Positions 2,105 to 40,812 of a DNA stretch of 47,558 nucleotides are shown here, one piece after another. The translations under genes and the position numbers were made by a program. The DNA lies in IMG/VR virus record IMGVR_UViG_3300025728_000015, positions 1 to 47,558 of that record; one strand, written 5' to 3'. Within the stretch, counting starts at the first letter, position 1; every line of letters starts with the position of its first letter. The DNA comes from a virus. The notes under the pieces are model-generated. The model made no database searches, was not told the DNA's origin, and was given only the letters and a program-made list of their open reading frames with translations.

Positions 2105-2115
2105 ATATAACTAGG

Positions 2116-2143
2116 AAGACTGCCTACAGAGGTGGTCTTTTTT
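2116..2143 (+). terminator. Intrinsic terminator of the rightward early operon
   Basis: AAGACTGCC (2116-2124) pairs with GGTGGTCTT (2131-2139), giving nine pairs including two G-U wobbles, around a TACAGA loop and followed by a run of T. It sits 12 bases after the last small gene and separates it from the large non-coding region. Confidence 0.85.
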
Positions 2144-2146
2144 GTA

Positions 2147-3092
2147 TTCTAAAGAGATTAAATGCCTACAGTTTCCTTATCTTATCCGTTATGATATATA
2201 CCTTTTAAGCTATACACACAAGCTAAATTGTGGACTCTAAAGCTCTATACTCTACAGATCATCTACCTAGCTATATCAAACTAACCAGATGCATACACTA
2301 TGGATTTATATACTACATAGATATTACTCATAAGCATATACTGTATAGACGGGTGCACACAAGATAGGGTCGATTCTCCTCAGGTAAACTACCTATGATT
2401 ATCTATAGGGTAAAGTACTGCACCTAAAGTACAGGCTAAATAGCTACCCTAAATAGCTAGGCTTAAACCCTATAGTAAAACCCTATAGTTAAATGCTATA
2501 GCTAAATAGTGGTAGTGTATCTGTGGTGTATAGGTGCTGTGGAGGAGTGCTTGAGAGGGCTACTGTAAAGGTCTGCCAGTGCACGCCACATAGGTACATA
2601 CATATAAGCCTACCTGCATAGCCTATACATCTGAGTGTATATCTCGAGAGGAATATCGCTCGAAAGATTGTGAATCATCGGTGAGAATCATTTATGCATT
2701 GCTCGAGAGAAAAATAAAAGAGGCGAAGAAGTAGAAAAACATTGAAGAAAGGCTTCATAGAGGCATTGAAACTTAGATGACTTCCTATAACCTTTATTAT
2801 GTCAACTGAATGTGAAATACAACACGAAGGAGGGTCGACAAGGGGTACGGGGGTGGGGGTGCCTCAGATTTGGAGCCCTTCCGCTCTGGGAGTCACTCTT
2901 TATAGTATGCTACGTGTGAAAAGCGATTTCCCTCTGGAGATTTTGCTTACGTGTAAAGCCACAGGCTGTTAAGCGCTCGATTGCTTCCGTACTATTAAGA
3001 TAGACCTACCTCGAAAGTAGTAGCTCGAAAGCTCATCCGTCCTTGAAAGATATAGCTTAGAGAAAATATTGGGCGAAAGTTTAAGAAAACAC
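2147..3092. other. Large non-coding region with iteron-like repeats and small hairpins
   Basis: About 0.95 kb with no convincing gene. The left part (2160-2520) is rich in CTA/TAG steps and contains tandem repeats. The right part (2640-3090) has several C-GAAA-G elements (CTCGAAAG at about 2672, 3011 and 3025), a G-tract block at 2841-2857, and two ACGTG-type direct repeats near 2910 and 2950. It lies between a terminator and a promoter. Candidate roles are the replication origin, a packaging signal or an untranslated RNA. The sequence alone does not decide between them. Confidence 0.6.
2436..2509. repeat. Iteron-like tandem repeats, 13-nt spacing
   Basis: CTAAATAGCTA occurs at 2436-2446 and again at 2449-2459, 13 bases apart. 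AAACCCTATAGT occurs at 2465-2476 and 2478-2489, also 13 bases apart. A further partial copy CTAAATAG is at 2502-2509. The constant spacing and position in non-coding DNA resemble initiator-binding iterons. No dedicated initiator gene is identified nearby. Confidence 0.55.
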
Positions 3093-3121
3093 TTGCACTC
3101 CTTTTCAATACGTGCTATTCT
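3093..3121 (+). promoter_or_regulatory. SigA-type promoter
   Basis: A -35 TTGCAC (3093-3098) and a -10 TATTCT (3116-3121) are separated by 17 bases. The site opens the unit 3154-3645 and marks the end of the large non-coding region. Confidence 0.65.
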
Positions 3122-3153
3122 TAACTCATCAAGTATTTGAGGAGGACATGCAC

Positions 3154-4847: not shown

Positions 4848-5337
4848 GATTCATAGCTTGGGAGGTAAGCGCAATACGAATAGAATACTTGAACGGCTAG
4901 AGCCATATCTTCATAGCTTCCGAGAAGGATACGATACAGTTTATTATTTGAATAAGATCGGAAGGGAATATGTTGACTCTAAGAAGGTTCTACGGAAGAA
5001 TCAATTCGTAAGTCATACTCTGATGAGGAACGAATGGTTTATCTTCAAAGGTAAGCCGTCCTATTGGCGCAATGAGATGAAAGTTGGAGGAGCCATCGTT
5101 TGTGATGCTGTATATAAGGAGTCTGGGAAGATGGTTATCTTGGAAGTTGACCTAACTCAGAAGATGTCCGTCAATAGGGAAAAGATTGCAACCTATAAGA
5201 AGGTGAGCTCTAAAGTTAAGGATTTCCCTTTGGTGATATTTCTAACTCATACGGAACATAGAAGGAAGCAATTGCAGAAAGCTTGCTCTGAGGCAGGGCT
5301 GACTGCTGAGGTTTACACTCTCGAGGATGTGCGCTAA
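4750..5337 (+). CDS. Replication-relaxation family protein
   Basis: The 195-residue protein opens with a winged-helix segment (about 8-50), followed by a central mixed alpha/beta region containing VILEVDLTQKMSVNREKIATYKK. That pattern resembles the replication-relaxation family found beside FtsK-like ATPases on plasmids and some Bacillus phages. AGGAGGAAACCAC precedes the ATG at 4750, inside the FtsK gene, so the two are coupled. A role in plasmid-like DNA handling or replication is inferred from family context. The terminator hairpin begins within its last codons. Confidence 0.75.
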   Translation: MSTLNLKPLNTRHEKILLSLKKLSFLTRIQLSKIHSLGGKRNTNRILERLEPYLHSFREGYDTVYYLNKIGREYVDSKKVLRKNQFVSHTLMRNEWFIFKGKPSYWRNEMKVGGAIVCDAVYKESGKMVILEVDLTQKMSVNREKIATYKKVSSKVKDFPLVIFLTHTEHRRKQLQKACSEAGLTAEVYTLEDVR

Positions 5338-5363
5338 TGCGTATATCTTGAGAGTTTTTTTTT
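5317..5363 (+). terminator. Intrinsic terminator overlapping a gene end
   Basis: A long imperfect stem begins with ACTCTCGAG at 5317, turns at TAAT (5335-5338) and closes with TTGAGAGT, followed by nine T residues. The 5' arm lies inside the last codons of the replication-relaxation gene. Confidence 0.85.
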
Positions 5364-5382
5364 ATTTTTATCTGGAATAGTG

Positions 5383-7523: not shown

Positions 7524-7900
7524 AGTTGCTCCATTAAGATATTGATTATCTCCTGTTGCTTATCTATAATGGCTTCATATTTAGCTGTGAGAGCTTTAAA
7601 GTCCTCTGAGGTAGTTTTATACTCCTGAGGTACTACAACCTCTCTAGCGAGCTCCTGAGCCTTCTTAGAGTACCTGTAGAGCATATCATTGACTGCGAGC
7701 TCAGTCTTGTAGAAAATATCTCCAGTGTCCATTAACATGTAGGAAATCATTATCTCACCGTTTTCTAAATAGCGATTGATTATCTTGATCGTTCCCTCTT
7801 CAGTGATATATTCTTTTCCTTTAGCGTACTTCTTTGACTTCTTAAGAAATCCAACTCGATTGCTTTCACTCATCTTACGTCCTTCTGCTTTACGGTTCAT
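7511..7900 (-). CDS. Hypothetical protein, 129 aa, lone leftward gene
   Basis: AAGGAGGCGGTAAC precedes the ATG on the minus strand. The N-terminus is basic (about 30 residues), a middle beta-rich segment resembles a small barrel (EYITEEGTIKIINRYLENG), and the last 45 residues form a helix ending DKQQEIINILMEQL. A basic arm plus a coiled coil would suit a DNA-binding or regulatory protein. It is the only leftward gene between 1 and 28829. No family is recognised. Confidence 0.7.
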   Translation of the reverse strand: MNRKAEGRKMSESNRVGFLKKSKKYAKGKEYITEEGTIKIINRYLENGEIMISYMLMDTGDIFYKTELAVNDMLYRYSKKAQELAREVVVPQEYKTTSEDFKALTAKYEAIIDKQQEIINILMEQLKRG

Positions 7901-8010
7901 GTTACCGCCTCCTTAGTTTTACTTACACGACTATTCTACGCAGGTTGTCCGAAAAGTATACATACATTCTAGAAAAAAGTTTTGCGAAAAGTTGTGTGGC
8001 GAAACCTCAA

Positions 8011-8043
8011 AAGTGTATGGCTGAAAAGCTGTGCACTTATTTT
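8011..8043 (+). terminator. Terminator-like hairpin
   Basis: AAGTGTATGGC (8011-8021) pairs with GCTGTGCACTT (8028-8038), eleven pairs with three wobbles, followed by ATTTT. The apex CTGAAAAG matches two other terminators here. What it terminates on the plus strand is unclear; it may stop read-through from upstream. Confidence 0.55.
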
Positions 8044-8088
8044 GTATCCTGTCAAGGTAATTATTTTAAAAGATTTTGTAACTTTTTG

Positions 8089-8117
8089 TTGACAACAATT
8101 TAGGACATGTGTATAAT
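8089..8117 (+). promoter_or_regulatory. Perfect consensus SigA promoter
   Basis: TTGACA (8089-8094), 17 bases, TATAAT (8112-8117). It is followed at once by the inverted repeat GTTCTT-7 nt-AAGAAC (8118-8136), which could be an operator or a 5' RNA hairpin. It is the only fully consensus promoter noted and is expected to be strong from the start of infection unless repressed. Confidence 0.9.
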
Positions 8118-8159
8118 GTTCTTTAGAGAGAAGAACAACATTAGAGAAAACAAACAAGC

Positions 8160-8186
8160 TTGAAAGTTCGAACGTTAGTGAGAACA
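8160..8186 (+). repeat. Dispersed 26/27-nt element, copy 2
   Basis: Matches 3642-3667 apart from the short variable spacer. Here it lies about 43 bases downstream of the consensus promoter's -10 element, inside the presumed transcript leader. Confidence 0.55.
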
Positions 8187-8229
8187 AAAGACCTTGTACT
8201 TCATTACATTACGTACTATCAATTATATC

Positions 8230-8258
8230 TTGATTAAGCATATCCGTTGGTGTATAAT
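8230..8258 (+). promoter_or_regulatory. SigA-type promoter before terS
   Basis: TTGATT (8230-8235), 17 bases, TATAAT (8253-8258). A second TATAAT follows a few bases later. The terS start is about 35 bases downstream. Confidence 0.8.
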
Positions 8259-8294
8259 GTATAATATAAACTATTGAGATAAGGAGAGACGGAA

Positions 8295-8801
8295 ATGATA
8301 CACAATCACGAAGTAAAGAACGTAAAGTTTCCTGCTGATCCTCCTGAGTGGAACGGAATCAGCTTTAAGAACTTTAAAGAAAAGCATCGCATCCTCAACA
8401 GGGAGTTGATGGCTTCAGGAATGAACTATCGGAAGATTGCTTCTAAGTATGACTATCGACTGGACAGTTTGTACCGTATAGCTCGTATGCCCGCCTCTAG
8501 AGCATACCGAGACTGGCTAGGTGCTAGCGCTAGGGATACTCAGATTGCAGATGCTCACGAGGTTCTGAGGCACCTCACAGACATCTTAAGAGAGGATGCC
8601 TACGATGAGCATGTCACTCCAGCAGGAATGATTGTCACTAAGAAGACGGACACGAAGGATCGTTTGAAAGCGGCGGAGACTTTAGCTAAGGCGTTTGGCA
8701 TGTTTGAGAATAAAACTCAGGATACTTCAAACGTTATTGTTGTTGACATTGAAGGAGAAGACGAGGATGATGATATTTTAACTATAGAGAGTGGGGAATA
8801 A
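8295..8801 (+). CDS. terS: Terminase small subunit
   Basis: The 168-residue protein has an N-terminal helix-turn-helix-like region (about 30-65, NRELMASGMNYRKIASKYDY), a helical middle, and KDRLKAAETLAKAFGMF (about 119-135), a typical small-terminase segment, followed by an acidic tail. Small terminases recognise phage DNA and feed it to the large subunit. Position before terL supports this, although a structured intergenic RNA and two small genes lie between them. ATAAGGAGAG precedes the ATG. Confidence 0.8.
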   Translation: MIHNHEVKNVKFPADPPEWNGISFKNFKEKHRILNRELMASGMNYRKIASKYDYRLDSLYRIARMPASRAYRDWLGASARDTQIADAHEVLRHLTDILREDAYDEHVTPAGMIVTKKTDTKDRLKAAETLAKAFGMFENKTQDTSNVIVVDIEGEDEDDDILTIESGE

Positions 8802-8802
8802 A

Positions 8803-8970
8803 ATGAAAGTACAAGAGTTCATAGTGAGGTTTAACGGTGAAGCTATTGATAAGGATCAACTCGAGAGGATTATCTACAAAGGTCTTCAATGGTATGAGGA
8901 TATTCACTGGAAGCAGTATGTTGTTACTAAAGAGGGACGACCTGAAGAGGGAGGCGACTTAGATGATTAG
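8803..8970 (+). CDS. Small hypothetical protein, 55 aa
   Basis: It starts one base after terS ends, with GTGGGGAATAAA upstream as a weak site. The product is compact, with a beta strand (VQEFIVRFNG), a helix and a Trp-rich middle (QWYEDIHWKQYVV), and an acidic tail. Its stop overlaps the next start. No family recognised. Confidence 0.55.
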   Translation: MKVQEFIVRFNGEAIDKDQLERIIYKGLQWYEDIHWKQYVVTKEGRPEEGGDLDD

Positions 8971-9139
8971 TACATTCATATTAGCATGTTTCTTACTACT
9001 TATGATGATGTCAAGCTTTGTAGTCGGGATGGTTATTACTTACATGGCTTTCAGAGATAAAACTTTGAAGATATTGGACAATGAAGATATGCCTTCCGTT
9101 TATAAACTAACAGTAATTAAAAAACTTTTTGATAAATAG
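8963..9139 (+). CDS. Small membrane protein, 58 aa
   Basis: The ATG lies within the end of the previous gene, after GAGGGAGGCGAC. Residues 2-30 form one long, Met-rich transmembrane segment, followed by a charged cytoplasmic tail of about 28 residues. The promoter of the large ncRNA begins right at its stop codon. Role unknown. Confidence 0.6.
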   Translation: MISTFILACFLLLMMMSSFVVGMVITYMAFRDKTLKILDNEDMPSVYKLTVIKKLFDK

Positions 9140-9169
9140 TTGACAAGCTATATAGAAATATGCTATTAT
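9140..9169 (+). promoter_or_regulatory. Promoter of the terL-leader ncRNA
   Basis: TTGACA (9140-9145), 18 bases, TATTAT (9164-9169) with an extended -10 TG at 9161-9162. The -35 starts one base after the preceding stop codon. Transcription is expected near 9176. Confidence 0.85.
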
Positions 9170-9175
9170 GTTAGT

Positions 9176-9727
9176 AGTTGATAAAGAGAGGTAACTCATA
9201 AGAGGCTCTCTGTAAGACTCCTCCTCCTGAGGAATATCACAAGTGAAATGCGAAAGCTAGAAACTTGTGCTTTCCTTTGAAGGTTCTCTCAAAAGTTAAA
9301 CGCAGGGCTGATGAATCGTTACGAGCGAGCCGACACAATAGAAGCTAAGTAGAGAACCTTGAAAGGAAAGTATACGAGTGCTTTCTAAAGAGTCTTTTTA
9401 TAGTGCAAGACATAAGCTTCAGAGATTACGGCTCTGGAGCTTCCTCCTGCCCTGAGTTCAGGTCAACCTGTAATTATGAACCTTACAGCAGTGGTTCAAG
9501 TCCACGTTGGGGCATCCCTCCTTTTTGAAAACTAGAGAGGATTAAGACCTTTAGGTTTATGATACTCATTGCGAGTCACCAACCGAAGATAAGGCAACCT
9601 CCCTCCTAAAGAAATCCTCGAGACCTCCTCCGAGGCGCACCACCGATGCGCAAAAACTGGAACCTGTGAGATCACGCCTAAGTGCAAAGATAAGATGACT
9701 CTTCCTCTCTAGTTTTGAGAAAGGAGC
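9176..9727 (+). ncRNA. Large structured RNA, about 550 nt, upstream of terL (ROOL/GOLLD-like candidate)
   Basis: There is no convincing ORF, a strong promoter in front, and a series of stems: 9185-9190 with 9206-9211; 9238-9244 with 9263-9269; a 20-base stem 9270-9289 with 9351-9370 (19 of 20 pair); 9414-9424 with 9432-9442; a tRNA-like domain 9448-9514; and a 24-base stem 9518-9541 with 9703-9726. The last arm covers the ribosome-binding site of terL. Size, phage location and a tRNA-like part recall the GOLLD and ROOL giant RNAs. Membership is inference. It may be a leader of the terL mRNA or a separately processed RNA; no terminator is seen before terL. Confidence 0.7.
9448..9514 (+). other. 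tRNA-like domain inside the structured RNA
   Basis: TGCCCTG (9448-9454) pairs with TGGGGCA (9508-9514) as an acceptor-like stem. GTGG-TTCAAGT-CCAC (9491-9505) is a classic T arm with consensus loop. CTGTAA/TTACAG (9468-9473 with 9483-9488) forms an anticodon-like stem with a nine-base loop. The D arm is missing or merged with the CAGG/CCTG hairpin. At 67 nt it is probably not a working tRNA but a mimic or relic. Confidence 0.5.
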
Positions 9728-9733
9728 ATTTCT

Positions 9734-11002
9734 ATGAGTAATGATATTCCTCTAAAGATATCATTCAAGAAGCGCTTCTTCAATGAATGTTATCTTCCAA
9801 CGTTAAGTAATAAAAATCGTATCCTCATCTTCTACGGAGGGGCTGGATCAGGAAAGTCTGTATGGGCATTCCAACGACAGGTGATGATTTACCTCAAAAG
9901 TAAAGAACCTCGAAAGTGTTTAGTAGTCAGAAAGGTTGGAGCCACTATACGTGATTCAGTCTTTGCTCAGATGAAGCACACTCTATCCTCTTTTAAGATT
10001 CTAGATCGATGTAAGGTCTCAGAGTCAAACTTCACAATTACTCTTCCAAACGGAAGTCAATTTATCTTCAAAGCTATGGATGACCCCGAGAAGATCAAAT
10101 CTATTCAAGGTCTAGATGATATCATGATAGAGGAAGCTACTGAGCTTACCTTAGATGACTTCTCACAGCTTAAACTTCGATTGCGCTCTCAAAAGCCAAA
10201 CAACCAAATCGTAATGATGTTCAACCCTGTTAGTAAATCTAATTGGGTGTACAAGGAGTTCTTCAAGGACAATCCTGACTTAAAAGCTAAAGATGCTTAC
10301 ATCATGCATACAACTTACAAGGACAATAAATTCTTACCAGAGTCTTACGTGAACGGCTTGATGGAAATGATGAATTCCAATCCAGTCTACTTCCGTATCT
10401 ATGCTCTCGGAGAGTTTGCTTCACTTTCTAAGCTTATCTATACAAACTGGGAAGAGAAGCTATTTAACTTACCAGACCTTGTCTCTAAAGGTATATCTCA
10501 ACCACGTTTTGGAATGGACTTTGGTTTCACTAATGACCCGTCCACTTTAGTGGGTGTCATGGTAGATAGACCTAACAAGACAATGTATATCTTTGATGAG
10601 TACTACAAGAAAGGGGCAACCAATGAAGAAATTGCAGAAGCTATCTTTGACATGGGTTACTCGAAGCAAACTATTACAGCTGATTCTTCTGAGCCTAAGA
10701 GTATTCTAGAGATAAAGCGTAACGGTGTCCGTAAGATTAAACCTGCTAAGAAAGGCAACGACTCTCTAATGTGGGGCATTCAATTCTTACAAGGTTGGAA
10801 AATGATAGTCCATCCTAATTGCAAGGAAACTATCGAGGAACTTGAGAACTATGCTTACGTCAAAGACAAGAAAACTAACGAGTACATCAATAAGCCTATA
10901 GATGAATTCAACCACGTTCTAGATGCTTTAAGGTATGCTATGGAAGACGAGATGCCAGCAAATAGGATGAATACTGGAACGAAAGGGGCATTTGGAATTT
11001 AA
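9734..11002 (+). CDS. terL: Terminase large subunit
   Basis: The 422-residue protein has Walker A GGAGSGKS (35-42), Walker B IMIEEA (130-135), and a C-terminal RNase H-like nuclease with Asp262 (GMDFGF), Asp317 (ADSSEP) and Asp397 (HVLDALRY). This is the packaging motor ATPase and headful nuclease of the PBSX/terminase_3-like type. GAAAGGAG precedes ATG 9734, but those bases form the 3' arm of a 24-base stem, so translation may depend on RNA refolding or processing. Confidence 0.95.
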   Translation: MSNDIPLKISFKKRFFNECYLPTLSNKNRILIFYGGAGSGKSVWAFQRQVMIYLKSKEPRKCLVVRKVGATIRDSVFAQMKHTLSSFKILDRCKVSESNFTITLPNGSQFIFKAMDDPEKIKSIQGLDDIMIEEATELTLDDFSQLKLRLRSQKPNNQIVMMFNPVSKSNWVYKEFFKDNPDLKAKDAYIMHTTYKDNKFLPESYVNGLMEMMNSNPVYFRIYALGEFASLSKLIYTNWEEKLFNLPDLVSKGISQPRFGMDFGFTNDPSTLVGVMVDRPNKTMYIFDEYYKKGATNEEIAEAIFDMGYSKQTITADSSEPKSILEIKRNGVRKIKPAKKGNDSLMWGIQFLQGWKMIVHPNCKETIEELENYAYVKDKKTNEYINKPIDEFNHVLDALRYAMEDEMPANRMNTGTKGAFGI

Positions 11003-11094: not shown

Positions 11095-12587
11095 TGAGTC
11101 AAGAACTTCGAAACGAATACTTCTACGCACCTCATGTGTTCAATGCACCTCGAAAGTACTACCTCAAGAACATTGCAGACTTGAAAGATATCTCAATGCA
11201 GATTTACGCTTTCAATAATCGTCAGAGCGAATACAGAGAGTTGAAGAACTATTATGATAACAACACTCGAATCAATCAGAGATCCTTCGATGATCCTACG
11301 AAGCCGAACAACCGTATCAGTCACCCCTTCGCAGAAATAATCGTCAACAATGCTACGTCTTACTTCACAGGTAAGCCTATCAAGGTTCAACCTCACAAGG
11401 AGTCTAGACAGAAAGAGCTTGACCGTATTCACTTCCTCAATGAAGTAGACGACATCAACAGTGAACTAGATAGATTGTCCAACCTTTACGGACATGCTTT
11501 CGAGTTACACTGGAATGATACAATCAACGGAAAAGTTACTCCTCGCTTTAAAGCCTTATCCCCACAGAATGTCATGATGTTCCACTCAACAGACTTCGAT
11601 GAAGAGCCTATCGCTTCGGTGGTATGGACATGCGTCAGAGATACTGGAACTAATGAGATGGTCTACAACGCTACTCTCTACACGAAAGACACTGCTCAAA
11701 AGTTTTCATTCAACATGTCAGGAAAGTCAATTGTAAATATTAATCCAGACAAGCCTAAACCTCACACGATGGGATTCCTTCCGGTTATCGAGTATTTAAA
11801 TAATGAAGACAGAGCATCATCCTTCCAGAAAGTAATGGGACTCATTGATGCTTACAATACTGCTGAGTCTGATACTGTCAATGATATTGAATATTGGGCA
11901 GACAGTTATCTCGTTCTCAAGAACATGAGTGGCACTGACCCTGAAGATGTTGCAGAGTTTAAACGCAATCGTGTGATGCTTGTAGATGGAGACGGTGGTG
12001 CTGAGTTCCTTAATAAGCAAACAAACGATACTCATCTAGAGAACTTCAAAGATCGCCTCACGAGTGACATTCACAAATTCTCACAAGTACCTAACTTACA
12101 TGATGAACAGTTTGCGTCCAACTTATCAGGTACTGCTATCCGTATGAAGATTAAAGACTTAGAAGATAAAGTATCTGCAAAGGAACGAAAATTCAATAAG
12201 TCACTCCGTAAACGATACGAGATTATCTTTGCTACTCTTGATAAGGTTGACTTGGCAGAAACTACAGACTTTGTAGAATTTATCTATACAAGAAACATTC
12301 CGTTAAACTTAGTAGAGACTGCTGATATGGTTGCAAAAGCTCCAGAGGGACTATGGTCTATGAAGACTCTTCGTACACTATACGGTATCACCTACAATGA
12401 GCAGAAGGAAGTTGAGCAAATCAAGAAGGAACAAGAAGAAGCTGACAATCGACTAGCCACTGTTGATCCATTTGCACCAGCCCCTAAACCTCCAGTTGAC
12501 CCTAAAGAGCATCCTATGGGAAGCAATCAATCATCTAGTGGACAAGCTGGAAAGCCTCCAGCACCTAAGCCCTCGACACCTAAATAG
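11094..12587 (+). CDS. Portal protein (SPP1 gp6-like)
   Basis: The 497-residue protein fits the SPP1-type portal family in length and order. The N-terminal region has YYDNNTRINQRSF-like wing sequence, the middle has the stem/clip segment, and SGTAIRMKIKDLEDKVSAKERKFNKSLRK (about 350-375, abbreviated here by its ends) matches the conserved crown-side helix. A Pro/Lys-rich tail follows. Portals form the dodecameric DNA gateway at one capsid vertex. It lies directly between terL and the MuF-like gene, as expected. GAAAGGAG precedes the ATG. Confidence 0.9.
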   Translation: MSQELRNEYFYAPHVFNAPRKYYLKNIADLKDISMQIYAFNNRQSEYRELKNYYDNNTRINQRSFDDPTKPNNRISHPFAEIIVNNATSYFTGKPIKVQPHKESRQKELDRIHFLNEVDDINSELDRLSNLYGHAFELHWNDTINGKVTPRFKALSPQNVMMFHSTDFDEEPIASVVWTCVRDTGTNEMVYNATLYTKDTAQKFSFNMSGKSIVNINPDKPKPHTMGFLPVIEYLNNEDRASSFQKVMGLIDAYNTAESDTVNDIEYWADSYLVLKNMSGTDPEDVAEFKRNRVMLVDGDGGAEFLNKQTNDTHLENFKDRLTSDIHKFSQVPNLHDEQFASNLSGTAIRMKIKDLEDKVSAKERKFNKSLRKRYEIIFATLDKVDLAETTDFVEFIYTRNIPLNLVETADMVAKAPEGLWSMKTLRTLYGITYNEQKEVEQIKKEQEEADNRLATVDPFAPAPKPPVDPKEHPMGSNQSSSGQAGKPPAPKPSTPK

Positions 12588-12603
12588 AAAGGAGACTTTA
12601 TAG

Positions 12604-13377
12604 ATGGCTGATACTAAGAAGCAAGAATGGCTTGAGAGAGAAACTCGTAAGGTTCACGATACAATCACTCGAGACATCGACAAGTATCTCAACACCTTAG
12701 GCAAAGAGTATCAGCGACTCTATAAGGTTCTCACTCAAGAGGTCAAAGATTTAAACAGACAGCTAGAACTTGGACGCATCTCCTCAGATTACATGGAGTT
12801 GCGCACCAATGTTTTAATCACTCAGCTTGAAGCAAGACTTATGACTATCAAGCAAGAGATGGCTCAAGAGCTTCCTAAGAAGTTGGAATACTACGAGTCA
12901 TACTCAAGAGAAGGAATGGAAAAGATTCTCAAGAGATTGGACACTGTAGCTCTACCAGTCAGAGCGATTGAGTTTGCTACATTGTTTAACTATAAAGATT
13001 ATGATTTCCAATCGAGTATCTCCAAAGCTGGAATCACAGTAGGATCCAGACTTAATAAGGTACTCACGGAAGGGCTTGCTAAAGGTTGGGACAACCGAAA
13101 GTATGCCAAGGAGATTCAAGCAATTGAGAAGTTCACCAAGTTTGAAGCCAATCGAATAGCACGCACTGAAACTGCAAGGGTAGCTACTGAAGGTTCTCGC
13201 CGAGGAATGAAAGAGTACGGCATAGAGAGAGTCGAATGGGATGCAACACTTGAACGCAGGACGTGTCCCGTATGTGCTTCACTTCATGGTAAGAAGTTCC
13301 CAATAGATAATGCGCCTCCACTTCCAAGACATCCATTTTGCAGGTGTGTCCTACTACCTGTAGTCCCTGAATTGTAG
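12604..13377 (+). CDS. MuF-like minor head protein
   Basis: The 257-residue protein has a helical N-terminus (1-130) and the MuF core. NRIARTETARVATEGSRRGM (184-203), CPVC (221-224) and HPFCRC (243-248) form the expected zinc-binding pattern. Such proteins bind the portal and take part in head morphogenesis or DNA ejection. The position after the portal is standard. AAAGGAGAC precedes the ATG. No C-terminal toxin domain is fused. Confidence 0.9.
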   Translation: MADTKKQEWLERETRKVHDTITRDIDKYLNTLGKEYQRLYKVLTQEVKDLNRQLELGRISSDYMELRTNVLITQLEARLMTIKQEMAQELPKKLEYYESYSREGMEKILKRLDTVALPVRAIEFATLFNYKDYDFQSSISKAGITVGSRLNKVLTEGLAKGWDNRKYAKEIQAIEKFTKFEANRIARTETARVATEGSRRGMKEYGIERVEWDATLERRTCPVCASLHGKKFPIDNAPPLPRHPFCRCVLLPVVPEL

Positions 13378-14152: not shown

Positions 14153-15040
14153 ATGGCATTACAAGTTAAATTAGGCGAAGGTTTTTGGAAGCCAGGTCAA
14201 GCAGGTTTAACAGGAACTACAGATACAACTGATGTACAAGCTATTATCCCTCAGGTTATGGCTGACAGTATCGCTCAAAAGATGGGCAAGCTTATCCGTT
14301 TCGCTCCATTAGCTATGGTTGATACTCGACTAGTTGGCTCAGCAGGTTCTTCTATCACGTTACCTACATGGGCTTACATTGGAGATGCTAACATTGTAGA
14401 TGAGGGTGGCACTGTAACTCGTGAGGAAATCAAAGCATCAAGCAAGTCATTCGTAATTCACAAAATCGCTAAAGATATCCAAGTAACTGATGAAGCTGAA
14501 GGCGCAACTAATGGTGCAGTCTTAAATGAAATCGACGGTCAATTAGCAGTATCTATCGCTCAAACGGTTGACAAATCAGTTGTTGAAGTATTACGTGCAG
14601 GTGCTACAGCTAATGAGATTAACAAGAAAACTGTAGAGTTAACACAAGCAGGTTTAGCACAATTACGTGTAGCTTTCGGTGAGGACATCGAAGATACTGT
14701 ACTAGTTATCGCTTCAGTAGACTACGGTAAGATTTTAGCAATGAAAGAATTCGTAGCAGTTCTTCAAGGACAAGCTTTCATGGCAGGACACGTTGGTCAC
14801 GTAATGGGATTAAACATTGTAATCTCTGATCGCTTAAATGAGAACGAATCATTCCTAGTACGTGCAGGCGGATTAGCTATCTCTTACAAGCGTCAAGTAC
14901 ACTTCGAAGTTGAACGTTTAGCTCAACAACGCTCTAACGCTTACTGTGCAGATTTACACTACGTAACTTACATCCGTGATGCATCTAAACTTCAAGGTGT
15001 AACATTCAAGGAAGCGACTGCACCTGAAGAGGGAAAGTAA
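14153..15040 (+). CDS. Major capsid protein (N4-gp56 family)
   Basis: The 295-residue protein shows the N4-gp56-type pattern: IIPQVMADSIAQKMGKLIRF (about 31-50), then ITLPTWAYIGDA (64-75), KDIQVTDEAEG and a hydrophobic domain near the C-terminus. It uses the HK97 fold in known relatives and makes the shell. Codon use is cleaner and more T-ending than its neighbours, as expected for the most abundant protein. The zero-frame stop TAA (15038-15040) directly follows a GGGAAAG slippery site. AAAGGATG precedes the ATG. Confidence 0.95.
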   Translation: MALQVKLGEGFWKPGQAGLTGTTDTTDVQAIIPQVMADSIAQKMGKLIRFAPLAMVDTRLVGSAGSSITLPTWAYIGDANIVDEGGTVTREEIKASSKSFVIHKIAKDIQVTDEAEGATNGAVLNEIDGQLAVSIAQTVDKSVVEVLRAGATANEINKKTVELTQAGLAQLRVAFGEDIEDTVLVIASVDYGKILAMKEFVAVLQGQAFMAGHVGHVMGLNIVISDRLNENESFLVRAGGLAISYKRQVHFEVERLAQQRSNAYCADLHYVTYIRDASKLQGVTFKEATAPEEGK

Positions 15041-15150
15041 AACCTCCTGAGGGGAAACCTGAAGAGGTAGAACCTCTAGAGGAATCTCCAACGGAGAATG
15101 AAGCTCCTCCTTCAAAAGAGGAAATCATTAAGGAAGCTAGTGGGGAGTAA
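14153..15150 (+). CDS. Frameshift-extended major capsid protein (332 aa)
   Basis: A -1 shift at 15031-15037 bypasses the TAA and continues in an open frame to TAA at 15148-15150, adding 37 residues rich in Glu and Pro (starting VKPPEGKPEEVEP). The open frame exactly fills the otherwise unexplained gap between the capsid gene and the next gene. Two-length capsid proteins made by -1 shifting are known in T7 (gp10A/10B). The extension probably forms a surface decoration (inference). Confidence 0.75.
15031..15037 (+). promoter_or_regulatory. Slippery site G GGA AAG for -1 frameshifting
   Basis: It has the canonical X-XXY-YYZ form in the correct phase, immediately before the TAA. Downstream, AGAGGT-AGA-ACCTCT (about 15063-15077) and CCTC/GAGG segments can form a stimulatory hairpin or pseudoknot. 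Confidence 0.75.
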
Positions 15151-17616: not shown

Positions 17617-17913
17617 ATGGAATTAACTATCAAAATTAACGGTGAAGATAAAACATTTAAGCAACCTGAAATCTTAATGGCTATCCGCTTCAAGCAAGCT
17701 GTAAAGTGGGCTTCAGCTATCGAGAAAGACTTCTCAGTTGAGACTCTTGAGGGAGCTGTACAGTTTATCGCAAATGATTTATATGTAGGACAGTTCACTG
17801 CTGATGAGTTCTGGGAAGGTGTACACACTGAGGATTTAGTTGACTACTTACGAGATGCATTAACTTCTCCTATGATGCGTATGCAAGGTAAGCTTGAACC
17901 ATTAAAAAACTAA
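17617..17913 (+). CDS. Tail assembly chaperone, short form
   Basis: ATG 17617 is chosen because GGAGG (17604-17608) precedes it; a TTG at 17602 is part of that site. The 98-residue protein resembles gpG-type chaperones: a beta-rich N-terminus (LTIKINGEDKTF) and a helical rest. It binds the tape measure during tail assembly. It ends in AAA AAC TAA, where a slippery heptamer allows the longer fusion. Confidence 0.85.
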   Translation: MELTIKINGEDKTFKQPEILMAIRFKQAVKWASAIEKDFSVETLEGAVQFIANDLYVGQFTADEFWEGVHTEDLVDYLRDALTSPMMRMQGKLEPLKN

Positions 17914-20858: not shown

Positions 20859-22757
20859 ATGGTAGTACTCAATAAAGTAAACAATCTCCCTAACTTTGAC
20901 TTTAAAGGATTGAATAGCTTAGAGGACATGAAAGTTTACATGACTTCTAAGCCGTCCATTCCCTTGCCAGAGCTACGAGCAGATTACGTAGTAGTCAAAG
21001 GTAGGGACTCAACGTACACCATCTCAGATGGGACGTATGATGATATAGAGATATCTTTCGGGTTACGTACCTATAGAGGGGAACTCTCTTATCAGGATAC
21101 ACTTAATAAGTTAAACGATTGGCTAAGACCTGACTTGTATGCAGACTTCTCAGAACTTGTCTTCTCAGAGTTTCCTCAGTGGTACTTTGATGTTAAAGGG
21201 ATTACACCTCATACGTGGAACTACAATTCAGCAACTGGAGAGTTTGTTACAACTGTTAAGATGAGATGTGCACCTTTCAAGTATTCTCATAAGCAGTACG
21301 ACATGGTAGGTAATAGCTCTACTCCTATTCCGATTGAACCTAGGACGTTTAAACCCTCAGCAGGAAGTGTCTGGAAGATAAAGACTGAGCCTCAGTTGCA
21401 GAACCATAGTGATCTTAGTAGGCATGGATATCAGAGAGTTCTTAAGGGAGATGTTACTCCTCAGTCGGAACTTAATAAGCTATCCAACATAGATGGGACT
21501 TCAGTGACTGTCGATCAAGCTAAATACACTTCAGGAAATTATCACAACTGCTGTCCTGACTTCTATTCTACTCTAAGTAATTGGAATGCTTTGAAGGATT
21601 CAGAGATAATCAACCTGAACTCTACAGAGGCAATGTTCAACTTTAAAACATCTAGCTCAACTATTACGGCAACACTTAAAGGAATACAGGCAGGTAAGAG
21701 ATACTTATTCAACTTAGGGTATAACTACGGAGATGACTTGCAAGGACTATCTCTTAGAGTAAACTCCTTCTCAGGAACACTTGTGGGTTCCTCAAATGGG
21801 CTAAGTACGGTATCATTCATACCTACCTCTTCAGGTGACCATTTAGTGACAATCTCAAGCAATAGAGTTAAGTCAATTGCCGTAAAGAGACCTTGGGCGG
21901 TTCAAGAGAATACAAATCCTGCAAAGTATACTCCTGAGGGTAAAAGCTCGATGGCTACCGTTGTAGTTGCTGTAGATATGACTCCACTGTTGAAAACTAT
22001 TGAGCCGAGCATCTATGGAAGCTCAACTTCAGAGGTTGACTTGAAGAATATCTTGAAAGCTAGAGGGGTAACCTTAGATGTCGAGAAAGTCGTATCACAT
22101 ACTTCAGGGACATCCGTCAATTTAATCCAAGTTGAAAAAGATACAGCAATTCATTCATTATCAGTTAACCCTATAGGGGCAAATGAAACTAAGAAGATAA
22201 CTACTTCCCTCACAAGTGCAACTTTTGTGGATAGACTGTACTATCAGAATGTACAAGGAAGCTTATCTTTATGGGCAACATTTATCATTACCTCGATAGA
22301 TAGCTTCAATGATCCTGGAATGTCTCTCGAGGACAAGTACTTCTCTCTAGATAGTTTTAACATAACGGTAAAGATGAACTCTATTCCGTCAGCTACAAAG
22401 AGCATCTACAATGACGGTAACCTCGAGACTCTTCCCTATCTTAAACTATACAAAGCACCAAACGTATCTGAATGTAAGATTGATATGTGGCAAGCTAAGC
22501 AACCTAACGGGTATCAATACTACTCAGGGATTACTATCAAGAATATGGGACAAGTTGGAGCAGGTCAGCATATCGAAATAGATGCAGACTATCAAGACGT
22601 AATACGATATCAAGAAAACGACCCAGCATTGTCAACCAATTGGAACATCAATACAGTAATTGCAAGTGAAAACCCAAAGCTAGGTCTAGGGTGGACATCT
22701 ATTGAGGTTACTGGAGTATCTAAATTAGAAATAGAGTGGAGAACTCGTCGGATATAG
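20859..22757 (+). CDS. Distal tail protein (Dit) with long C-terminal extension
   Basis: Residues 1 to about 145 match the Dit/sipho_tail N-terminal domain (DIEISFGLRTYRGELSYQDTL, then LRPDLYADFSELVFSEF). Classical Dit proteins are about 250 residues long; this one has 632. The added region is beta-rich, including a jelly-roll-like stretch (about 260-340, ITATLKGIQAGKRYLFNLGY), which suggests an evolved Dit carrying carbohydrate-binding modules. It would form the hub at the tail tip. AAGGAGATG precedes the ATG. Confidence 0.8.
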   Translation: MVVLNKVNNLPNFDFKGLNSLEDMKVYMTSKPSIPLPELRADYVVVKGRDSTYTISDGTYDDIEISFGLRTYRGELSYQDTLNKLNDWLRPDLYADFSELVFSEFPQWYFDVKGITPHTWNYNSATGEFVTTVKMRCAPFKYSHKQYDMVGNSSTPIPIEPRTFKPSAGSVWKIKTEPQLQNHSDLSRHGYQRVLKGDVTPQSELNKLSNIDGTSVTVDQAKYTSGNYHNCCPDFYSTLSNWNALKDSEIINLNSTEAMFNFKTSSSTITATLKGIQAGKRYLFNLGYNYGDDLQGLSLRVNSFSGTLVGSSNGLSTVSFIPTSSGDHLVTISSNRVKSIAVKRPWAVQENTNPAKYTPEGKSSMATVVVAVDMTPLLKTIEPSIYGSSTSEVDLKNILKARGVTLDVEKVVSHTSGTSVNLIQVEKDTAIHSLSVNPIGANETKKITTSLTSATFVDRLYYQNVQGSLSLWATFIITSIDSFNDPGMSLEDKYFSLDSFNITVKMNSIPSATKSIYNDGNLETLPYLKLYKAPNVSECKIDMWQAKQPNGYQYYSGITIKNMGQVGAGQHIEIDADYQDVIRYQENDPALSTNWNINTVIASENPKLGLGWTSIEVTGVSKLEIEWRTRRI

Positions 22758-22781
22758 TTCTTCACTTGAAAGGAGAACTAT

Positions 22782-24290
22782 ATGGAATACCCTTCACTGT
22801 ATGAATACATTCCACCTATAAGTGGATCACTGGCTAACTACTGGAACACTCGAGGGATTGGCACCCTTCGAGATGTCCTCGAGTGTACAATATATGAAAA
22901 CCTTGATGGGGCATTTGAGCTAACTCTTGTGTACCCTGATGGGGGAAGATATGAGCATGAAATCAAAATAGGTCGCATGATTAAAGCTAGAGCATACCAA
23001 CCTAAGACACCTTGGGAGCAAGCTAACTACAAAGTTGGCTCAAAGGATATGTGGGGTAACGACTCAGCTTACTATAAGATCCCTGTTGAGCATCAATTGT
23101 TTTACATCAATGATATTGAATACAATTCAGACGGTACCATGACAGTGAGAGCAGTTCACTTTACGTATCGCTTTAAAGATAACATGTTCTTAATCTTCGG
23201 AGTTGACAACGCTACGAACTTCCCTTATGCGGAAAGAGAACATACAGGAAAGCTTCCGTGTGACATAATTGACTTGGCTTCAAAGACAGGACACTTTTAC
23301 AGTGTATCAAGTATGAGTAGGACATATCCTCTTAAGTGGTACAACTTCCAAGGGAACGTTGTGACAGTTCCATCTAATCAATGTTCCGTTGAGATAGGGA
23401 CTACAGAATTCATCCAAGATATTGATAATCAATTAGAGTATATGCCTTGGAATCCTGACAGCGACAGAAACAATGTGTATCCTAGAACTATTAAGATGGG
23501 ACATGACAACCAGCAAAATACTTTCTTCGGAGAGAAAGATACCTCATTCAAGAACCTCTGGAAAGCTGACATCATTAGAGATCGCTGGAGAGTAGTCCTA
23601 TGTACGAATAGAAGCTTGAAGACTTGGGACAATGCTTATACGATATCTTACGGGAGAGATACTGTAGGAATGAAAGTTAGGACAGACTTGTCAGACATCG
23701 TTACAGATATATTCCCTTACTATATGTGGACTGGAAAGAAGAAAAGACTTGTTCCCGACCCTACTCCGGATGACCCTAACAGAATGAAACTTGAAGAGTA
23801 TGACGCTGAAAGGCAAGTCGTTCTTGATAGACGTGGAGACTCTACAGCTCCTGTTTATCCTGACGTGTCAGATATTGGAGTTATGCGTTTGATTCCTTAC
23901 AATAAAGACATGCGTACAGGTCTTCATGTGGATATGGCTCTCTACATGGATACGGAAGCTCTCAATACTCGAATGGAACAGAACGATTGGGGACAAAAGA
24001 AAACGTCAATGCCTTACTTGTATGACGCTGTGAAGAAGTACAGAAACGTTACAGGTATCTGTTACGGTACTCTCTCCGCAGATATTGACTTCTTACCTGT
24101 GTGGGAAACGGAAGAGGCTAAACACAAGCCAGCTCTTGAGAAGCTACGTCTCGGTGATCCCGTCATAGTTAATCATAAACGTCTTGGAAAGATTCACTCG
24201 AGAGTATCCGAGACAGTATTGAACTGCTTAACAGGGAAGTACGAAAGCATCAAGATAGAGTCTCACTCAGTACGAATCCCAATTGCTTAA
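22782..24290 (+). CDS. Tail-associated protein (Tal, prophage endopeptidase-tail type)
   Basis: The 502-residue protein begins with the gp27-like hub fold typical of phage tail endopeptidase proteins (LRDVLECTIYENLDGAFEL, then YPDGGRYEHEIKIGRMIKA), with an HFTYRFKDNMF segment next. It ends soon after the hub (LGDPVIVNHKRLGKIHSRV), so there is no long fibre or lysin domain. Following Dit, it closes the tail tip and may cleave or bind the cell wall. AAAGGAGAAC precedes the ATG. Confidence 0.8.
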   Translation: MEYPSLYEYIPPISGSLANYWNTRGIGTLRDVLECTIYENLDGAFELTLVYPDGGRYEHEIKIGRMIKARAYQPKTPWEQANYKVGSKDMWGNDSAYYKIPVEHQLFYINDIEYNSDGTMTVRAVHFTYRFKDNMFLIFGVDNATNFPYAEREHTGKLPCDIIDLASKTGHFYSVSSMSRTYPLKWYNFQGNVVTVPSNQCSVEIGTTEFIQDIDNQLEYMPWNPDSDRNNVYPRTIKMGHDNQQNTFFGEKDTSFKNLWKADIIRDRWRVVLCTNRSLKTWDNAYTISYGRDTVGMKVRTDLSDIVTDIFPYYMWTGKKKRLVPDPTPDDPNRMKLEEYDAERQVVLDRRGDSTAPVYPDVSDIGVMRLIPYNKDMRTGLHVDMALYMDTEALNTRMEQNDWGQKKTSMPYLYDAVKKYRNVTGICYGTLSADIDFLPVWETEEAKHKPALEKLRLGDPVIVNHKRLGKIHSRVSETVLNCLTGKYESIKIESHSVRIPIA

Positions 24291-25893: not shown

Positions 25894-26307
25894 ATGGCAA
25901 CTATCTATGGTTATTTATATGACGACAAAGGGGTATTTGTAGAACAAGTACCTATCTATGGGGTTTTTGACGAAGAAGGAAATGAATCTCATCCATTGCC
26001 TCCAAAGGTAACATTGATCGACCCTCCTCCTATGAACACCTTCCCTTACTTTGATGAGGATAAGCAACTATGGGTACCTACAGTTGTCCCTGATCCCCTT
26101 CCAGAGCAAAAACCTGATGCCCCAATTTTTAATGCTGAAGAGGAGATACGTAAACTCCGGGAAGAATATCTAAAGGAAATCAAGTCACTCAAGGAAGAAG
26201 TTTCTCAATGGAAACGAATCAATTCAGACTTATCTTCATCGTTACAACGTACAAGATACTATCTGACACTTGCTCTCCCGGGAGCTTCTCACCTATTCAG
26301 AGATTAA
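25894..26307 (+). CDS. Hypothetical tail-region protein, 137 aa
   Basis: The N-terminal half is Pro-rich and beta-like (IYGYLYDDKGVFVEQVPIYG; VTLIDPPPMNTFPYFD), resembling small chaperone or accessory proteins found after tail fibres in Bacillus phages. The C-terminal half is a coiled coil (EEEIRKLREEYLKEIKSLKEEV). AAAGGAGGAAAAATA precedes the ATG. It may help fold or attach the adjacent receptor-binding protein; this is inferred from position. Confidence 0.6.
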   Translation: MATIYGYLYDDKGVFVEQVPIYGVFDEEGNESHPLPPKVTLIDPPPMNTFPYFDEDKQLWVPTVVPDPLPEQKPDAPIFNAEEEIRKLREEYLKEIKSLKEEVSQWKRINSDLSSSLQRTRYYLTLALPGASHLFRD

Positions 26308-38360: not shown

Positions 38361-38388
38361 TCACTCCTCCTGAGTCTTTGCTAATATG
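38361..38388 (+). promoter_or_regulatory. Possible promoter of the rightward early operon
   Basis: TTCACT (38361-38366), 16 bases, TAATAT (38383-38388). It is weaker than the other promoters. It is the best match before the SSB-like gene in the divergent 316-base intergenic region 38137-38452, which otherwise holds the leftward promoter and leader. Confidence 0.45.
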
Positions 38389-40136: not shown

Positions 40137-40162
40137 TTGGATTTAATCATTAATTGTTTTCG

Positions 40163-40191
40163 TTGACACACAGGAAAGACTGTGATAGTAT
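40163..40191 (+). promoter_or_regulatory. Promoter of the second large ncRNA
   Basis: TTGACA (40163-40168), 17 bases, TAGTAT (40186-40191). The spacer contains a perfect inverted repeat CACAG-GAAAGA-CTGTG, which might be an operator. Transcription would start near 40198. Confidence 0.85.
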
Positions 40192-40197
40192 TGAATC

Positions 40198-40787
40198 ATA
40201 CCAGTGATACACAAGGTAATAAAATATTGAGGTGTATCGGACACCCTGAGAGAAGGGAAATAAACTTATAAGCCATGTAAGAGTGAGATCTACATAGGCA
40301 AATAAACATGAATGACTTCGAAAGAGTAAGACGGAAAGTTGCTTTTAAGAGTAACCTTGAACAGTTCCATTTACAGACATCTTAGGAGTTCGATAACTAA
40401 GCAGGCAACGACATGTTGCTACAAAGTATTCTACATCCTGATAACGTGTAGGATAGCTCACTTTTTGATTGACACTCTGGAAAGACAGAGCGCTCGTGAG
40501 GTGAGAGCGTACTTTCTGCAAGCCGACTTCTAACTAAGGTAGGTGAACAGGAAAGCCTTCTTTCAATCTAGTACACTACAGAGTAGAAACTGTTGTGTGC
40601 GACTCGGTGGAGACCTAAGACACCTCTTCCGTTTCAATACTGACTGGTAGGAAAGACTACTACAAGATTATATGTAAAGCTAGACTTGTGTGACGGGGAA
40701 GCTGAAGAGCGTACCTTGATAGACATATCTTGACCATAGTATTAGCTTAATCCCTTTGGAGGTGCAACTCTGGAGGGATATTTTTTT
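40198..40787 (+). ncRNA. Stand-alone large structured RNA, about 590 nt (ROOL-like candidate)
   Basis: It is bounded by a strong promoter and an intrinsic terminator and holds no convincing gene. Stems seen: 40206-40212 with 40232-40238 (alternative 40231-40235 with 40241-40245); 40272-40279 with 40291-40299; 40405-40409 with 40415-40419; 40475-40479 with 40486-40490; 40491-40495 with 40505-40509; 40551-40555 with 40560-40564; 40646-40650 with 40657-40661. Length and phage location fit the ROOL class, which forms RNA oligomers. Class membership is inference and needs a covariance search. It lies in the rightward early operon, so it is probably made early. Confidence 0.75.
40750..40787 (+). 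terminator. Intrinsic terminator of the second large ncRNA
   Basis: ATCCCTTTGGAG (40750-40761) pairs with CTCTGGAGGGAT (40768-40779), twelve pairs with wobbles, then ATTTTTTT. It gives the RNA a defined 3' end. Confidence 0.9.
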
Positions 40788-40812
40788 GTTTAAAATAATT
40801 TACATAAAAATG

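Follow-up and report, generated by a model that had tools for sequence, protein, structure and literature searches.

A structured leader RNA with multiple anti-Shine-Dalgarno motifs before terL of a virus: a possible translation switch

Introduction

Binding of Shine-Dalgarno sequences (SDs) by C-rich RNA motifs has been described for Staphylococcus aureus RNAIII (PMC2837412) and for Listeria LhrC, RsaE, SprD and FsrA, the UCCC-motif sRNAs (PMC4132741). RNAIII is a large structured RNA of a low-GC Gram-positive, a separate host transcript in which a few unpaired C-rich loops pair with the SDs of specific targets and block initiation of several mRNAs (PMC2837412), and LhrC and its kin are short terminated sRNAs with few targets, whose three redundant CU-rich motifs lie in loops or single strands and can each bind an SD; they are neither leaders nor phage RNAs (PMC4132741). 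Among large structured phage RNAs, GOLLD and ROOL are of unknown function, and the GOLLD linker can carry tRNAs (PMC12286853).

Here we analysed a 47,558-base virus record (the window, meaning the whole stretch of DNA under analysis), in which head, tail and replication genes were identified and a large structured leader precedes terL. The leader resembles RNAIII in its size, setting and unpaired C-rich loops, but it is phage-borne, fused to terL and furnished with 5-8 full CCUCC motifs, in a genome whose SDs fall into two classes. Its redundant motifs, each predicted to be capable of SD binding, recall LhrC; LhrC-type sRNAs are ~110 nt long. As in RNAIII and LhrC, motifs complementary to SDs and predicted to be unpaired were found, but the terminator of its own that an independent C-rich SD-targeting sRNA has was not detected. 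The resemblance would be one of mode of action, not of descent; the leader had no match to any Rfam covariance model, among which we take the RNAIII and LhrC families to be included. Unlike GOLLD and ROOL, whose Rfam models matched neither the window nor the leaders of four relatives, it contains no tRNA and is fused to terL, and its core consists of two long hairpins and C-rich loops. In the phage lambda N leader, which is opened by RNase III, a hairpin beside the gene's SD limits translation, whereas here the arms are predicted to pair with the SD itself, the leader carries anti-SD motifs and cleavage is hypothetical. No report of a phage anti-SD RNA or of a structured terL leader was found in the open-licence literature, which is weak evidence of absence.

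Results

Position, promoter and fold of the leader

The leader was located between terS with two small ORFs upstream and terL downstream, where a near-consensus promoter is followed by ~560 nt free of genes. This promoter ranked second best in the whole window in a promoter scan, in which promoter-like sites were about as many in shuffles as in the real sequence. A promoter of like kind was observed upstream of the leaders of relatives L004, L005, L006 and L010, and in the more distant L222 a TGT-TATACT -10 was the sole clear promoter element. The 566 nt from 9170 were predicted to fold with -171.4 kcal/mol, compared with -146.0 ± 7.2 kcal/mol for dinucleotide shuffles (z -3.54, 0 of 100 as good). 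The first-pass annotation of a structured RNA of ~550 nt between a strong promoter and terL was thereby confirmed. The structured leader spans 9176-9733, and the parts of the locus are as follows.

9140-9169, + strand: sigma-70/A-type promoter, TTGACA-18-TATTAT, with an extended -10 (TG); 11 of 12 consensus matches
9185-9211, + strand: variable 5' hairpin, lacking in L222, where the RNA would start near the next motif
9219-9233, + strand: anti-SD motif block with CCTCC at 9220 and 9223; UCCUCCUG (9222-9229) invariant
9268-9372, + strand: H1, a 21-bp hairpin with the conserved apical domain GGCUGAUGA...GAGCNAGNC (fold and covariation)
9371-9399, + strand: conserved linker UACGAGU...AAGAG..CUUUUU (sequence conservation)
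9414-9442, + strand: 11-bp hairpin with loop RUUACGG, present in L004 and absent in L005, L006 and L010
9443-9447, + strand: CCTCC anti-SD motif, mean unpaired probability 0.87
9448-9514, + strand: 67-nt insert found only in the window (comparison with relatives), with a T-arm-like hairpin (GTGG TTCAAGT CCAC)
9518-9541, + strand: 5' arm of the predicted terL-SD lock (fold and covariation)
9598-9631, + strand: CCTCC motifs at 9598, 9602, 9624 and 9627 within the lock (internal loop and hairpin loop), unpaired probabilities 0.77, 0.69, 0.85 and 0.43
9703-9726, + strand: 3' lock arm, which includes the terL SD AAAGGAG (9720-9726), unpaired probability 0.01 in the whole leader
9734-11002, + strand: terL, encoding the large terminase subunit, with which the late head and tail cluster begins (phrog_3717, E 1.3e-78)

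No Rfam match was obtained for the window at gathering score, for 7900-9900 up to E 10, or for the leaders of L222, L004, L006 and L223 up to E 1. ARAGORN found no tRNA gene in the window; the hairpin in the insert presumably resembles a T-arm, and a cloverleaf in 9448-9514 was recognised neither by ARAGORN nor by the Rfam tRNA model. From the promoter to terL, the + strand showed no intrinsic terminator, and no second copy of the leader was found elsewhere in the window. A 78-nt match of 5295-5372 to R1, the covariance model of the upper domain (E 0.0019), was taken as a chance hairpin. A 5' helix closed by AGAGUCUUUUU is not claimed, its predicted partners differing among leaders, and the apical GGCUGAUGA/GCGAGCC loop is no longer read as a kink-turn because L222 alters a required pair (by eye).

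Occurrence in relatives

TerL searches of IMG/VR viral contigs yielded eight contigs with 74-76% TerL identity and the more distant L222 (62%), and all nine carried a homologous leader at the same place, upstream of terL. Several of these leaders were identical, leaving a distinct homologous set of five (L004, L005, L006, L010 and L222). By contrast, L223 (TerL 60-61% identical) had only a short leader without H1 and the upper domain, and phages with TerL 50-61% identical lacked the full leader RNA. In Listeria LP-026, Enterococcus EG103P1 and 9181 and Carnobacterium cd4 (TerL ~51%), there was no gap before terL able to house it. Two further TerL relatives, L205 and L226, had gaps of 561 and 419 nt before terL (by the ORF rule) with zero CCTCC, which may hold other RNA elements.

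Model R1 gave matches with E <1e-20 in RNA-bearing phages only (95 sources, 864,293 bases), and nhmmer on 220 loci together with motif patterns retrieved the same leader family only. The linker pattern TATACGAGT...AGAGTCTTTTT occurred in eight viral contigs, each from this family; the linker of L222 was divergent (TTACGAGTG...AAAGAGAACCTTTTT). The apical pattern alone was too loose, since the matches listed were mostly unrelated contigs, and a tighter version matched L222 only. Among 50,697 phage records, blastn found no match for 9100-9800.

Conserved hairpins and the SD of terL

Pairing was well kept in both long hairpins, on counts resting on 6-7 alignment rows. In H1 (9268-9289 with 9351-9372) and the apical stems, 97.1% of the cells of 23 pairs were paired and two-sided changes occurred in 7 pairs, compared with at most 2 in partner-slid controls. 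For the 24 pairs of the terminal hairpin, the values were 86.9% and 10 (slid controls at most 4), which were lowered because the L223 row was misaligned in alignment A4. Compensatory changes in homologous phages, which the first-pass annotation had named as its test, were thus present. Of the long-range stems that it had counted, the 24-base arm pair (9518-9541 with 9703-9726, 92%) and the 21-bp stem stood, whereas the 9448-9514 insert and additional inner stems in the terminal domain proved private to the window.

In predicted folds, the terminal hairpin was 22-26 bp long with the terL SD buried within it. The unpaired probability of this SD was 0.01 in the window, 0.00 in L004, 0.13 in L005, 0.14 in both L006 and L010, and 0.28 in L222, where the helix was shifted so that the SD lay ~16 nt below it and was partly masked, implying a weaker lock. 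When SDs were ranked by accessibility on local folds (least accessible first), that of terL was placed 6/74 in the window, 2/66 in G001, 9/78 in G002, 3/43 in G004 and 1/9 in G003; G001, G002 and the partial G004 are the contigs of L004, L222 and L011, and G003 is the nearest RNA-lacking relative. In L223, the terL SD was found within a long hairpin of unrelated sequence (z -5.05). The locus therefore shows a conserved SD-pairing helix with compensatory changes, as SD-sequestering cis-regulatory leaders do, in weaker form in L222. Locking of terL by the leader, as predicted from sequence, is well supported by the covariation.

Multiple CCUCC motifs

The leader of the window contained 8 copies of CCTCC, and those of L004, L005, L006, L010 and L222 contained 5, 5, 7, 7 and 6, respectively. 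Shuffles gave means of 0.7-1.4 per leader and reached the observed count in at most 5 of 1000 cases. At least five copies in the 600 nt before terL were found at 5 of 68 terL loci (the same five relatives) and 0 or 1 copy at the other 63, the loci being a selection from the TerL searches with weaker or truncated ones excluded. Many copies were predicted to be open (unpaired probability 0.6-1.0), and some to be largely paired (two in the window, with unpaired probabilities of 0.21 and 0.32). Within the anti-SD block 9219-9233, TCCTCCTG was invariant across 6/6 leaders, and the relatives were also C-rich at positions equivalent to 9598-9631.

Two classes of SD in RNA-bearing phages

A listing of SDs, some of whose starts were spurious, gave the first lead by suggesting GGAGG in early genes and AAAGGA(G) in late ones. 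Counts were then obtained throughout with one gene caller, our own script, which chose the start with the best SD by the same rule for every phage; 'late' was defined by position and covers the run of genes that starts with terL, stays on one strand and takes in the head and tail genes. GGAGG SDs were found in 2/21 late versus 37/53 other genes of the window, 4/19 versus 29/47 of G001, 1/20 versus 35/59 of G002 and 2/14 versus 20/29 of the partial G004, or 9/74 versus 121/188 in the four RNA-bearing phages pooled (odds ratio 0.077). In 17 TerL-related records without the leader, the pooled counts were 98/291 and 170/469 (odds ratio 0.89), none being significant singly; these controls are not all independent because terL and SD suggest near-identity within the pairs G008/G018 and G015/G016, and G003, G017 and G018 have too few genes on one side to inform. 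The late and other counts of annotated phages without the leader were likewise not significantly different: LP-026, 7/22 and 28/89; EG103P1, 9/18 and 40/62; cd4, 9/22 and 18/47; KLEB27-1, 14/25 and 24/45; Javan633, 5/25 and 4/34; and 9181, 11/21 and 26/54. In 7 kb of G003, 1/8 late SDs were GGAGG, i.e. they were already mostly of the other type.

Predicted pairing with the 16S tail was the same for late and other SDs in the three phages compared (window, -11.7 versus -11.8, P 0.23; G001, -12.1 versus -12.1, P 0.60; G002, -11.4 versus -11.3, P 0.98; G004 entered the decoy comparison below). Predicted pairing with the accessible segments of the phage's own leader was weaker for late SDs, at -7.8 versus -12.0 in the window (P 2e-7), -9.1 versus -11.5 in G001 (P 3e-3) and -9.4 versus -10.8 in G002 (P 2e-2). 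Late SDs are thus not weak; they appear to have shifted to a side of the 16S tail not mimicked by the leader. With three generic CCUCC decoys, the classes differed in 4/4 RNA-bearing phages (P 2.5e-7 to 0.017). Among the 14 of 17 controls that had three or more genes in each class, G011 (P 0.008) and G005 (P 0.048) leaned in the same direction and G007 (P 6e-4) in the opposite one; a weak trend thus also occurs in phages lacking the RNA. The gap between class medians was 3.2 to 5.2 kcal/mol in each RNA-bearing phage versus at most 2.8 in every control.

Inside late coding sequence, GGAGG was observed 22 times in the window (19.9 expected), 12 in G001 (12.2), 19 in G002 (19.6) and 4 in G004 (6.8); late reading frames do not avoid it, and the avoidance is therefore confined to SDs. 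Late orthologues mostly retained their SD class. GGAGG was retained by the late gene at 17617 with its G001 and G002 orthologues, and by that at 25894. Non-late orthologue pairs of the window and a relative were both GGAGG in 29 cases, both non-GGAGG in 14 and mixed in 17 (P 0.002). Outside the late operon, terS (8295), an FtsK/SpoIIIE-like gene (3888) and a phrog_6883 gene (38453) had non-GGAGG SDs in every relative with an orthologue, and these three genes are predicted to be late-expressed. Upstream of the 38453 gene, CTCCTCCTGAG at 38365-38374, similar to the leader's invariant motif, was observed between a possible -35 and an extended -10.

Other features of the genome

The first-pass annotation had counted two large RNAs in this genome, and a second large non-coding stretch with its own promoter indeed recurred at the same place in the window (40160-40790), G001 (12020-12750) and G002 (22430-23140). 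It had a terminator-like hairpin with a T-run in the window and G001, and several hairpins with a common GAAAGA hexaloop (stem-GGAAAGAC-stem), resembling a multi-site binding RNA; no match was found in Rfam or in phages. At 15031-15150 of the window, the major capsid gene ended in GGGAAAG-UAA, with the -1 frame open for 37 codons beyond the slippery site (VKPPEGKPEEVEPLEES...), and the capsid protein is probably extended by programmed frameshift. The corresponding end in G001 and G004 was CACCCUAA, a possible +1 site. About 1 kb at 2105-3150 of the window, with no credible gene and rich in short repeats such as CTATAG, is possibly an origin or another non-coding element.

Discussion

The leader RNA is real, as its position, fold, recurrence in relatives and compensatory changes demonstrate, and it is considered to be a new RNA with a translation switch as its likely function. 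Our main reading, with a probability of about one half, is that a late leader RNA locks terL and also acts as an SD-targeting antisense RNA, disfavouring messages of the GGAGG class (early, perhaps also host); in it we infer the timing (from gene position), the trans action and the cleavage. The ~550-nt leader would open the transcript carrying terL and the head and tail genes. Because its last hairpin is predicted to pair with the terL SD, terL would be little translated until the hairpin is opened or cut, a step for which the computational evidence is strong. The 5-8 CCUCC copies seen in the sequence, each complementary to GGAGG, would be displayed on a scaffold of long hairpins. Once the leader is abundant, they would, as the SD partition suggests, pair with GGAGG-type SDs, and early and replication messages, probably host messages too, would lose ribosomes. 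Late genes would escape because the partner of AAAGGA(G)-type SDs is the CUCCUUU side of the 16S tail, so that these SDs keep ribosome affinity but match the leader poorly. The leader may act while still part of the late mRNA or once cleaved off, e.g. by RNase III at the lock. Judging from complementarity, multiplicity and partition, GGAGG-class SDs are most likely masked.

The partition, however, fits cis avoidance, in which late messages must escape their own leader, as well as trans repression. Since the four RNA-bearing phages are related, its association with the RNA amounts effectively to one or few events and may be mere co-occurrence. Rather unlikely, yet the likeliest alternative, is a leader acting in cis only, whose lock would keep TerL at a low dose or delay it until RNase III, refolding or a protein opens the hairpin; the C-rich loops would then be structural or hold the lock, and the partition would have another cause, such as a ribosome-acting phage protein or lineage history. 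No other element is as widely kept as the predicted lock, which L223 has while lacking the remainder of the RNA, and on local folds few SDs are less accessible than that of terL in the window and in G001, G002, G003 and G004. What a cis-only leader leaves unexplained is the invariant UCCUCCUG far from the lock, the multiplicity of CCUCC and the SD partition.

The latter two would also go unexplained if the late operon began with an element for processive antitermination or attenuation, like HK022 put or Bacillus EAR RNA. The promoter-proximal site, the strong hairpins and the conserved weak hairpin with a U-run at 9371-9399 would suit such an element, but terminator-like sites were not in excess in the late region (5 in 11-30 kb on both strands versus 11.8 expected by chance) and there were zero Rfam matches, which makes it improbable. 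Packaging sites are often located between terS and terL, as the leader is, and cos/pac repeats recognised by TerS might have been mistaken for RNA structure. This is very improbable, considering that the stems keep G-U pairs (UG in 4/6 rows at A3 columns 60/155 and in 5/7 rows at A4 columns 51/262) and show two-sided changes in place of conserved DNA sequence, and that a promoter lies directly upstream. The packaging- or particle-linked RNA proposed in the first-pass annotation, which would be analogous to the pRNA that serves phi29-type motors, is the least probable of all, as adjacency to terL is all that speaks for it, whereas the terminase is classical (phrog_2/3717), the RNA does not co-occur with the motor (phages with TerL 50-61% identical manage without it, and the one at 60-61% has the lock, not the rest), and the conserved anatomy points to translation control.

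The main reading, a lock on terL combined with SD-targeting antisense action, can be extended, more tentatively, to a genome-wide translational switch made of RNA only. Early GGAGG and late AAAGGA-type SDs would have equal 16S affinity, and a leader with up to 8 anti-SD copies, made alongside the late genes, would silence the early class and the host with the ribosome unchanged. The promoter is sigma-A-like, so transcription of the leader could also occur early. Transcription is the usual explanation for temporal control in phages. If the switch is true, such control would be exerted at translation, with SDs sorted into two classes, one of which is masked by a multi-site antisense RNA. It would predict that terS, the FtsK-like gene and the 38453 gene are late although they lie apart from the late operon, and the two SD classes would constitute an orthogonal pair with equal ribosome affinity, distinguishable by one RNA.
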